The position numbers were made by a program, and so were the translations under genes. 64,000 bases of DNA from Pseudomonas sp. SL4(2022) (GTDB taxonomy: Bacteria > Pseudomonadota > Gammaproteobacteria > Pseudomonadales > Pseudomonadaceae), in assembly GCF_026625725.1 (NCBI RefSeq), contig NZ_CP113060.1:4346001-4410000 (forward strand), written 5' to 3'. The notes beneath the pieces were generated by a model. It searched no databases. It was not told the DNA's origin and was given only the letters and a program-made list of their open reading frames with translations. This document shows positions 61,146 to 64,000 of this stretch, in pieces (position 1 is the first letter of the stretch; the number at the start of each line of letters is the position of its first letter).

Positions 61146-61874
61146 CTACAAATCATCGACAGGCAATTTAAGCTGTCCAAGCCCCTGCAATACGCTGGCT
61201 CCGGTAAACAGCATAACAATCTGCTCTTCGGCCAACGCACGAATCGCCGCTTGCCACTCAGGCTGACCGATATAGTCCAGCGACAGCTGGAACAGGTTGC
61301 GACTGATCAGGTTCGACACCTGCCGCACCACCGCCGGATTGACCATGTCCGGCAGCAGCTTGAAAGCAATGATGTCCTCGGCCATGTCCGCGCCAAACTC
61401 ATCCATCACCTCCTGCAGCGCCGCCCGCAGCACGGCCGAGGCGCCATGCAGCTCACGCACGCCGATGATGAAGGCCTCGGGGTTCTGCGCAACAAAATCG
61501 AAGAACAGTTGCACGGTTTCATGGCACACCCGCCGACCGCGATCCAGGTCGATACCAAACAGTAAAGCCACGCTTTTACTAGGCGATTGCACCGCTCGTT
61601 CGGCGGCTTCACGGCGCAGGTCGCGCAGCGGCTGACGCAACTGGGCAGAGATCTGCCGGATCACCGTCAGCCCCAGGTCATCGACATCCTTGAAGTGCCT
61701 ATAGAAGGTATTGGGATTGAGCCCCGCCTCACGCGCCAACTCGCGCAAGCCCAGGTTGCTGAGGCTGCGACTGGTTGAGGTGAGACGTAACGCGGCCTCC
61801 AGTAACAGGGTCTTGCCGGGGGCCTCGGTGGCTTTTTCTGCGGCTGGCTGCTGCTCGCTGGCGTCTGCCTGCAT
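61146..61874 (-). CDS. TetR-family regulator, FabR/DesT-like
   Basis: 242 residues. The N-terminal helix-turn-helix LRELAREAGLNPNTFYRHFKDVDDLGL closely resembles the FabR/DesT group (with Asn in place of the usual Pro-Thr-Ala), followed by a helical ligand-binding domain. It has an acidic, Ala-rich N-terminal extension of about 20 residues. It is divergent from the monooxygenase gene across a 115-base gap rich in palindromes, so it probably controls that gene and itself. The ligand may be an acyl-CoA or ketone substrate; inference. Confidence 0.87.
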   Translation of the reverse strand: MQADASEQQPAAEKATEAPGKTLLLEAALRLTSTSRSLSNLGLRELAREAGLNPNTFYRHFKDVDDLGLTVIRQISAQLRQPLRDLRREAAERAVQSPSKSVALLFGIDLDRGRRVCHETVQLFFDFVAQNPEAFIIGVRELHGASAVLRAALQEVMDEFGADMAEDIIAFKLLPDMVNPAVVRQVSNLISRNLFQLSLDYIGQPEWQAAIRALAEEQIVMLFTGASVLQGLGQLKLPVDDL

Positions 61875-61913
61875 GACGAACCCTACCTAAAAGTTGGCTT
61901 GTGAGAATGCTGC

Positions 61914-61967
61914 TTGCTGGCGAGTATACATTTGTCTACCTTGGTATACAGCTGTATACGCCAGCAA
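61914..61967. promoter_or_regulatory. Operator array between TetR and monooxygenase genes
   Basis: An outer inverted repeat TTGCTGGCG (61914-61922) / CGCCAGCAA (61959-61967) encloses a GTATACA half-site and the perfect 16-base palindrome GTATACAGCTGTATAC (61944-61959). The left arm repeats the right arm except for two extra bases. Confidence 0.7.
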
Positions 61968-61989
61968 TAAACATAACAGGAGCTTGGCC

Positions 61990-63543
61990 ATGAATGCACC
62001 CGTCTCACCCCCAACTGCCACCCGCCACTGCAAGGTGGCCATTATCGGCACGGGCTTCTCCGGCCTGGGCATGGCCATCCGCCTGAAACAGGCCGGTGAA
62101 CATGACTTTCTGCTGTTCGAGAAAGAAGCCGGCGTCGGCGGCACCTGGCGGGTGAACAACTACCCGGGCTGCGGCTGTGACGTGCAATCACACCTGTATT
62201 CGTTCTCCTTCGAGCAGAACCCTAACTGGACGCGCATGTTCGCCAAACAGCCGGAAATCCAGGGTTATCTGGAAGGCTGCTGGAGCAAGTACCGCCTGCA
62301 GAACCACACCCAACTGAATACAGAGATCACCCGCCTGACTTGGGATGAGCAGCAAGAGCTGTGGCAGATCAGTGACAGCGCTGGTAACAGCTACACCGCA
62401 CAGTTCGTAGTCTCCGGCATGGGTGCGCTGTCCACGCCATCGACTCCGGCGCTCAAGGGCCTGGGCGATTTCACCGGCAAAATCTTCCACTCACAACAGT
62501 GGGATCACAGCTATGACCTTACCGGTAAACGCGTTGCAGTCATCGGCACCGGCGCCTCGTCGATCCAGTTCGTTCCGCAGATCCAGAAACAGGTCAGCCA
62601 GCTCGATCTGTACCAGCGTACCGCGCCGTGGATCATGCCCAAGCCGGACCGCGCCATCAGCGAGCGTGAGCGCAACCGCTTCAAGCGCTTCCCGCTGCTG
62701 CAGAAACTCTGGCGCGGCGCTATCTATGCTCTGCTGGAAAGTCGGGTAATCGGCTTTGCCATGTTACCCAAGGTGATGACCGTCGCGCAGAAAGTCGGCA
62801 AGTGGTACATCAACAAGCAGATCAAGGATCCGGTACTGCGCGCCAAGGTCACCCCGGATTACCTGATGGGCTGCAAGCGCGTGCTGATCTCCAACGATTA
62901 CTTCCCGGCGCTGACCCAGCCCAACGTCGACCTGATCACCGACGGCATCGAGGAAATCCGCAGCGGCAGCATCCGCACCGTGGATGGCAAGGAGCGCGAA
63001 ATTGACGCGATCATCTTCGGCACCGGCTTCACCCCAAGCGACCCGCTGCCGCGCGGCGTGGTGTTTGGTCGCGGCGGCGTCGACCTGCTCGACACCTGGC
63101 CGGAAGGCCCGCAGGCCTACAAAGGCACCCTCACTGCCGGCTTCCCCAACCTGTTCTTCCTGATGGGGCCGAACACCGGCCTAGGGCACAACTCGATGGT
63201 CTACATGATCGAGTCGCAGATCCATTACGTGCTCGGTGCGCTTAAGCTGATTAGTGAGCAAGAGCTGCAGAGCCTTGAGGTCAAGCAAGCGGTGCAGGAC
63301 AAGTTCAACGGCATGCTGCAGGGCAGTCTGGGCAACACCGTGTGGAATGCCGGCGGCTGCAAGAGCTGGTACCTGCATCCGGTCAGTGGCCGCAACTGCA
63401 CGGTGTGGCCCGGCTTTACCTGGCGCTTCCGCTTGCTGACGCGCAACTTTGACCCAGCGGCCTATCATTTCAGCCGTAAACACGCGGCCCACCCGGCGCA
63501 GAACAGCGCTATCCAGTTGACTGCCCAGGAGGCCAGCGCATGA
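61990..63543 (+). CDS. Flavin-containing Baeyer-Villiger monooxygenase
   Basis: 517 residues starting at MNAPVSPPTATRHCKVAIIG, with AGGAG 8 bases upstream. The FAD motif GTGFSG (20-25), the NADPH motif GTGASS (186-191) and the Baeyer-Villiger fingerprint FxGxxxHxxxWD (Phe161 to Asp172) are complete. It would insert oxygen next to a ketone to give an ester or lactone, using NADPH, FAD and O2. It overlaps the SDR gene by 4 bases (ATGA). The substrate is unknown. Confidence 0.93.
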   Translation: MNAPVSPPTATRHCKVAIIGTGFSGLGMAIRLKQAGEHDFLLFEKEAGVGGTWRVNNYPGCGCDVQSHLYSFSFEQNPNWTRMFAKQPEIQGYLEGCWSKYRLQNHTQLNTEITRLTWDEQQELWQISDSAGNSYTAQFVVSGMGALSTPSTPALKGLGDFTGKIFHSQQWDHSYDLTGKRVAVIGTGASSIQFVPQIQKQVSQLDLYQRTAPWIMPKPDRAISERERNRFKRFPLLQKLWRGAIYALLESRVIGFAMLPKVMTVAQKVGKWYINKQIKDPVLRAKVTPDYLMGCKRVLISNDYFPALTQPNVDLITDGIEEIRSGSIRTVDGKEREIDAIIFGTGFTPSDPLPRGVVFGRGGVDLLDTWPEGPQAYKGTLTAGFPNLFFLMGPNTGLGHNSMVYMIESQIHYVLGALKLISEQELQSLEVKQAVQDKFNGMLQGSLGNTVWNAGGCKSWYLHPVSGRNCTVWPGFTWRFRLLTRNFDPAAYHFSRKHAAHPAQNSAIQLTAQEASA

Positions 63544-64000
63544 AGTCGTTTGAAAACAAGGTAGCCGCCATCACCGGCGCCGGTTCCGGCATCGGCCGCG
63601 CCCTGGCTTTCGGCCTGGCTCGCCAGGGTTGCCAACTGGCGCTCTCCGATGTGAATGCCGAAGGGCTGGCGGAAACCGCCGCCCAGGCGCGCAAGCTCGG
63701 TGTGCAAGTCAGTGAAACCCTGGTCAACGTCGCCGACCGTGAAGCCGTGCATGCCTGGGCCGATCAAGTAGTGAGCGAGTTCGGCCGGATCAATGCAATC
63801 TTCAACAACGCCGGCGTGGCCCAGGGCGGCACCGTGGAAGGCAACGACTACGCCGACTACGAGTGGATCATGAACATCAACTTCTGGGGCGTGGTCAACG
63901 GCACCAAGGCCTTCCTGCCGCATATCAAAGCCAGCGGTCAGGGTCATATCGTAAACGTCTCCAGCGTCTTCGGCCTGTTCGCCCAGCCGGGCATGAGCGC
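63540..64000 (+). CDS. Short-chain dehydrogenase/reductase, 3' end outside window
   Basis: At least 153 residues. The cofactor motif TGAGSGIG (12-19), the NNAG motif and the catalytic Ser strand VNVSSVFG are present; the YxxxK motif would lie just beyond the window. The ATG overlaps the monooxygenase stop. An alcohol dehydrogenase that supplies the ketone for the monooxygenase is the likely role, inferred from the coupling. Confidence 0.92.
   Translation, partial: MKSFENKVAAITGAGSGIGRALAFGLARQGCQLALSDVNAEGLAETAAQARKLGVQVSETLVNVADREAVHAWADQVVSEFGRINAIFNNAGVAQGGTVEGNDYADYEWIMNINFWGVVNGTKAFLPHIKASGQGHIVNVSSVFGLFAQPGMS

Follow-up and report, generated by a model that had tools for sequence, protein, structure and literature searches.

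Tandem palindromes between a divergent repressor gene and its target are known from Tn10, where TetR has the two sites tetO1 and tetO2. The locus described here resembles Tn10 in having two tandem palindromes between divergent genes; it differs in regulator subfamily, ligand and operator sequence. Among solved structures, the one nearest to the present regulator, both by sequence and by fold, is DesT (PA4890) of Pseudomonas aeruginosa, and the two systems have an ACAnnTGT-core palindrome in common. The desT gene is divergent from desB (passages of PMC4273635). Different from the present regulator, DesT targets desCB and fabAB and not a Baeyer-Villiger monooxygenase (BVMO) gene (passages of PMC10634369). 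FabR of enterobacteria is of the same wider family and its operator core is also ACAnnTGT (passages of PMC4804515); however, FabR acts on fabA, fabB and yqfA, and the present regulator falls below the FabR cut-off. As is predicted for the present regulator, EthR of Mycobacterium tuberculosis is a TetR-family repressor with a BVMO (EthA) as its target, and several EthR protomers occupy one operator, as an octamer according to the title of a reference listed in PMC5517500. EthR was absent from the sequence matches of the present regulator at E values up to 0.01; the two share the TetR fold with a Z score of about 15.7, behind DesT. AlmA/AlmR was considered as the nearest model and set aside, since the almA activator is AraC-type and AlmR has an Ig-like domain (passages of PMC11784139). 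The open-licence literature, searched mostly by title, gave no paper on this operator, which does not imply its absence from print.

In the window, by which we mean the whole analysed stretch of 64,000 nucleotides, sequence reading of the tetR-BVMO intergenic region (61875-61989) revealed two 16-bp palindromes, O1 and O2, whose starts are 20 bp apart (Table 1). O2 is perfect, and O1 has one mismatched pair in its arms. GTMTAC hexamers begin every 10 bp from 61924 to 61954, and the ACAnnTGT core is present in both palindromes, as ACATTTGT in O1 and as ACAGCTGT in O2. A sequence-only reading of this DNA had described nested inverted repeats, and all of them are found where it had placed them, including the inner palindrome and a further GTATACA at 61924. 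What it had called a third half-site is present; however, it forms the left half of O1, which is itself a full palindrome and the second one in this region. Two extra bases (AG) that it had noticed in the left outer arm are there as well.

Table 1. Coordinates of the features of the tetR-BVMO-SDR locus in the window.
Feature	Position	Strand	Remarks
tetR-type regulator gene	61146..61874	-	242 aa; DesT/FabR-like; recognition helix region GLNPNTFYRHFK
Left outer arm	61914-61922		TTGCTGGCG; frames O1/O2 with right arm
Candidate -35 box of BVMO promoter	61914..61919	+	TTGCTG; start of left outer arm; TTG position conserved outside the 24-spaced class
Operator O1 (predicted)	61924..61939	.	GTATACATTTGTCTAC; conserved in relatives
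Candidate -10 box	61937..61942	+	TACCTT; 17 bp after TTGCTG; TACATT in several relatives
Operator O2 (predicted)	61944..61959	.	Perfect palindrome GTATACAGCTGTATAC; over predicted transcription start
Right outer arm	61959..61967	.	CGCCAGCAA; poorly kept complementary to left arm; probably leader sequence, not operator arm
Ribosome-binding site of BVMO gene	61978..61982	+	AGGAG; from sequence; in many relatives
Type I BVMO gene	61990..63543	+	517 aa
Short-chain dehydrogenase (SDR) gene	63540..64000	+	294 aa; runs past window end

The regulator contains a TetR_N domain (PF00440; E 4e-07, 30.2 bits against a cut-off of 24), which places it in the TetR family. With the NCBIfam equivalog model of FabR (NF008402), it scored 98.8 bits (E 3.4e-28), below the cut-off of 151, and it is not assigned to FabR itself. 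The best PDB sequence match is DesT (3lsj, E 3.4e-17). An AlphaFold2 model of the regulator, based on 45 aligned homologues and with a mean pLDDT of 85.2, superimposed on DesT (3lsr) with Z 20.3 and rmsd 2.5 over 191 aligned positions; the next non-DesT entry reached Z 16.2. By whole-protein sequence and predicted fold, the regulator belongs to the broad DesT/FabR-type group. A palindromic operator with an ACAnnTGT core, which is characteristic of this type, is found in O1 and O2 as predicted sites.

The segment LNPNTFYRHFK of the recognition helix region is invariant in the alignment of the 45 homologues, and the form GLN[PH]NTFYRHF accompanies the sites described here; other homologues with sites vary slightly in this region (L132, L133 and L135). 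We also observed a sister group of regulators (L134, L136, L137 and L138), which carry GMHHTAIYRHF and have no GTAKAC site in the fetched stretches. The same genome encodes a DesT-like gene with VPTGFYRHF where the present regulator has NPNTFYRHF. Upstream of the DesT-like gene one AGTGAACAATTGTTCACT was seen, which shares ACAnnTGT with O1 and O2. Given the shared ACAnnTGT and the DesT-like predicted fold, the fold and the operator core are of the DesT/FabR kind, whereas the recognition helix and the outer operator bases differ together.

With at most one mismatch, the pattern GTAKACNNNNGTMTAC is matched at three places in the window, where 0.05 are expected, and none of 100 shuffles reached three. 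The three matches are O1, O2 and an overlapping middle register. In the genome of 4,440,564 bases, the exact pattern occurs in two places only, which are O1 and O2, and a backward control pattern has no match in the same genome. The inner repeats are genuine and lie far outside what chance would give. As GTAKACNNNNGTMTAC was read off the O1/O2 site itself, these window and genome counts are partly circular, and the relatives provide an independent and stronger test.

For this comparison, 80 loci were fetched by TetR similarity alone and 10 more came from genome searches. Of these 90 loci, 87 were kept; L002 and L003 (DesT-like gene) were omitted, and L004 gave no tblastn match. The loci range over Pseudomonas, Ketobacter, Nevskia and Marinobacter, and they contain 62 distinct operator pairs. 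Allowing at most one mismatch per site (the genome counts given below are exact), we found two sites 17-32 bp apart in 83 of the 87 loci, many of which are close relatives and some duplicates (L001 equals L011, and L049 and L139 may be one contig). Both sites are exact in 72 of the 83; the remaining four loci, L041, L049, L088 and L090, have a single site only. O1 has the form GTATAC-N4-GTCTAC in all 22 distinct sequences with 20-bp spacing. The pattern leaves four bases open, and the outer two of them are a purine at position 7 and a pyrimidine at position 10 in 124/124 sites of the 62 distinct pairs, although this constraint played no part in the search. A third dimer on the middle register (61934-61949) was rejected, as this register meets the purine/pyrimidine rule in none of 17 distinct cases of the 20-spaced class.

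The distance between the starts of O1 and O2 in the 83 loci is 20 bp (30 loci), 22 bp (1), 23 bp (9), 24 bp (29), 26 bp (1), 27 bp (5), 28 bp (1), 29 bp (6) or 30 bp (1). The spacing holds steady among closely related loci and changes from group to group, and no helical phase is shared by all of them. At every spacing there is room for two dimers side by side, and together with the presence of two sites in nearly all loci, this agrees with the suggestion of the sequence-only reading that two TetR dimers may bind next to each other. Because no helical phase is fixed across spacings of 20-33 bp, rigid contact between the dimers can hardly be the general rule, and an arrangement with both dimers on one helical face, which was also considered, does not agree with these spacings. 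A third palindrome of the same kind was observed in the same intergenic region of L010, L036, L037 (P. viridiflava type) and L060 (Marinobacter mobilis); it is one base off in L010, L036 and L037. In L049 and L139, the regulator faces the SDR gene, with one operator and no BVMO found in the stretch.

The outer arms admit a different reading of the region, in which it would form one composite operator with the 9-bp arms and the inner palindrome both serving as contacts, the left arm shifted in phase by two bases and the two promoters controlled unequally. A perfect 9-bp repeat around the operator arose in 0.3% of 20,000 base-by-base shuffles of the flanks, so the outer arms are unusual in this one sequence, and noticing them was justified. 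The arms were compared in the 22 distinct 20-spaced sequences, window included, 17 of which differ from the window in the arms. In seven of these 17, one position is changed on both sides and is still paired, and in L023/L024 the right arm CGCCGCAA would form a good pairing with TTGCCGGCG once a single base is skipped; both observations would favour a composite operator. However, between 1 and 6 other pairs are broken in each of the seven, and not one of the 17 retains the full set of nine ungapped pairs (the mean is about 5.6 of 9), whereas O1 and O2 are nearly fixed. In L142, the right arm CGCCAGCAA is intact, whereas the left arm reads TTGACCCTG. Moreover, the left arm begins with TTG, at a position that in more distant relatives is mostly occupied by TTGAC, a -35-like box. 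We read the left arm as a -35 box plus filler and the right arm as leader. Of the proposed nested repeat, the inner palindromes are operator-like, whereas TTGCTGGCG and CGCCAGCAA are not supported as parts of an operator; they may play a weaker role in one clade. The extra AG is part of the AGTATAC edge of O1, which is common in relatives, so no phase argument follows from it and the proposed phase shift finds no support. We consider a composite operator improbable.

The reading of the pair as the operator of the neighbouring TetR gains from its co-occurrence with the regulator across genomes. TetR was counted as present at E values up to 1e-20 and the pair as the exact tandem pattern; the window genome is included in the counts, and it and a few others appear in more than one genome set. 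Within the order, the exact pair is present in 25 of 390 genomes, all of them among the 34 TetR-bearing ones, and in none of the 356 TetR-less genomes. Within the genus, it is present in 6 of 149 genomes, all among the seven with TetR; in the seventh TetR-bearing genome (G113, L008), one site is a base off. The backward control found nothing in the order or in the genus. In 24 of the 25 genomes of the order, the pair is on the same contig as tetR and close to it. In the other genome, G485, it is located at the end of a different contig from tetR, beside a BVMO.

Nine of the 34 TetR-bearing genomes of the order have no exact pair. In G113 and G521 there are two sites, of which one is a base off; in G159 and G256 the two sites are more widely spaced, at 33 and 32 bp, respectively, and one G256 site is a base off; and G433 and G454 have a single site. 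In G294, G435 and G452, no site was found in the stretches fetched, and their regulators carry the recognition segment GMHHTAIYRHF. In a sister genus (25 genomes), TetR is present in 22 genomes, and each of these carries the pattern at exactly two places next to tetR; the closer site is 47-85 bp away from the part of tetR that matched. The other three genomes have neither TetR nor sites. The backward control matched in 8 of the 25 genomes, which shows that matches can arise by chance. The TetR match contains one internal TAG in two genomes (G534:C26:43167-43847 and G536:C48:223698-224378), both of which keep the two operator sites; the open frame there is 236 aa, so the TAG is perhaps only near the end.

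As the palindrome pair is unique in the genome and recurs next to this repressor in many related bacteria, it is very probably the double binding site of this TetR on the BVMO promoter. One could suppose that the repressor binds only one of the palindromes, and that a different protein binds the other or that the other is a relic. Single sites are found beside some homologues (L135 and L139 in addition to the four loci named above), so one site can suffice. However, the purine/pyrimidine constraint and the sequence are common to O1 and O2, and genomes without TetR have no tandem pair, which makes a single functional site very unlikely here.

The candidate promoter of the BVMO gene, TTGCTG-17-TACCTT, is weak, with 6/12 consensus bases, and a stricter promoter scan found none here. 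The TTG is located at -10 or -11 from O1 in all 22 distinct 20-spaced sequences, and equally in 22/22 distinct sequences with spacings of 22, 23 and 26-30 bp. In the latter, it is mostly part of TTGAC, mostly followed after 16 bp by TATACT, TATACC, TATACA or TCTACT; TTGCCG-17-TACATT is also present in relatives. None of the 29 distinct 24-spaced sequences (Marinobacter and L059) has TTG at -10 or -11 from O1. A match internal to the palindromes (TATACA-16-TACAGC type) scores 7/12 in the window, above the 6/12 of the TTG box, and outscores the TTG box in 15 of the 22 distinct 20-spaced sequences. If the candidate boxes are right, O1 would cover the spacer and the -10 box, and O2 would cover the start. 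In the 24-spaced loci, nearly all of them from Marinobacter, the distance from O1 to the aligned BVMO start is 76-100 bp in 27 of 28 cases (129 bp in L060), whereas that from O1 to tetR varies from 14 to 457 bp. The narrow O1-BVMO distance and the wide O1-tetR distance tie the pair to the BVMO promoter. The promoter of tetR itself was not located; one with the right arm as its -35 box was tried and dropped, as no acceptable -10 box could be seen by eye.

Some TetR-family proteins activate transcription. The weak core promoter in the window could need such help; however, activation from the pair is hardly to be expected, as the placement of the pair is typical for repression, with O1 between the two proposed promoter boxes and O2 covering the predicted start, and as DesT and FabR repress (passages of PMC10634369 and PMC4804515).

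Our preferred reading, in which we have high confidence, is that the pair is the tandem operator of the adjacent DesT/FabR-type TetR repressor, which would control the BVMO-SDR operon and be released by a ligand. One TetR dimer on O1 would fill the spacer and touch the -10 box of the BVMO promoter, and a second dimer on O2 would cover the start point. Both dimers together would shut the BVMO-SDR operon and probably also tetR. A hydrophobic ligand would release the repressor, and the operon would then be induced. The ligand would most likely be a long-chain acyl-CoA or a different compound formed when hydrocarbons, fatty acids or long-chain ketones are oxidized; ketones or acyl-CoAs, which had been put forward for screening as inducers, are plausible. 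In this scheme we infer binding, repression, the ligand, the promoter boxes and any cooperativity, and the ligand class from fold and gene content only.

Type I BVMOs carry the fingerprint FxGxxxHxxxW. The BVMO of the window contains it as FTGKIFHSQQW and is of type I; its best PDB matches are cyclohexanone monooxygenase (E 4.5e-70) and phenylacetone monooxygenase (E 3e-65), and its Pfam match is FMO-like. The SDR gene overlaps the BVMO stop by 4 bp. Downstream of the BVMO gene, the gene content varies in relatives and does not settle the substrate. Among the neighbours at other loci, Pfam identified an AMP-binding enzyme in L038 and a PF10118 protein in L050, where a second protein has no Pfam match; inspection by eye pointed to an AMP-binding enzyme in L040 and to an alpha/beta-hydrolase-like protein in L048. 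Just past the window end, downstream of the SDR gene (L093:3586-6034), we observed by eye genes for a MarR-type regulator, an Ohr/OsmC-like protein and an alpha/beta-hydrolase-like protein.

The deletion primers of PA1539 (PMC3462791) link the locus to P. aeruginosa. Three of the four primers map in order on L142 around the TetR homologue, with 3, 1 and 1 mismatches, and the fourth was not found on L142 within 5 mismatches. The first primer lies within a conserved stretch of the BVMO gene and also matches other loci, so the argument depends on the other two. Between L142 and the window, the identity is 67% for TetR, 71% for the BVMO and 77% for the SDR. PA1539 is very probably, judging from these matches, the P. 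aeruginosa counterpart (ortholog) of the present TetR. To our knowledge, PA1539 has no known target; PA1538 presumably adjoins it in P. aeruginosa. PA1539 was described as one of two FabR homologues, of which only PA4890 was judged to be involved in fabA repression, and the passages on PA1539 in that paper give no operator for it (PMC3462791). In P. aeruginosa held at a hexadecane-water interface, PA1538 was 16-fold up and alkB2 11-fold up, in an experiment in which the effect of hexadecane is not separable from interfacial stress (passages of PMC5736630). The induction of PA1538 agrees with a function in the oxidation of hydrocarbons or long-chain lipids; it does not name the ligand.

More tentatively, and at somewhat less than an even chance, we propose that the N[PH]NTFYRHF regulators form a separate branch of the DesT/FabR group, which would sense lipids derived from alkanes or long-chain ketones. 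As its hallmark, the branch would almost always have two operator sites, sometimes three, at spacings that vary between 20 and 33 bp regardless of helical phase, and it would act by double occlusion of one promoter with no rigid cooperative contact. PA1539 would then regulate PA1538 in the hydrocarbon response.

The mechanism itself is of a familiar kind; what is new is a testable predicted target for an orphan regulator. The analysis provides a precise predicted operator, a target operon and a likely inducer class for an orphan regulator that is widespread and very probably corresponds to the PA1539 group; this regulator is distinct from the membrane-lipid regulator DesT though of the same fold. 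The natural series of spacings from 20 to 33 bp suits the question of whether tandem repressor dimers need contact, and the system could lead to a biosensor with a single target that reports the oxidation of long-chain hydrocarbons or lipids.
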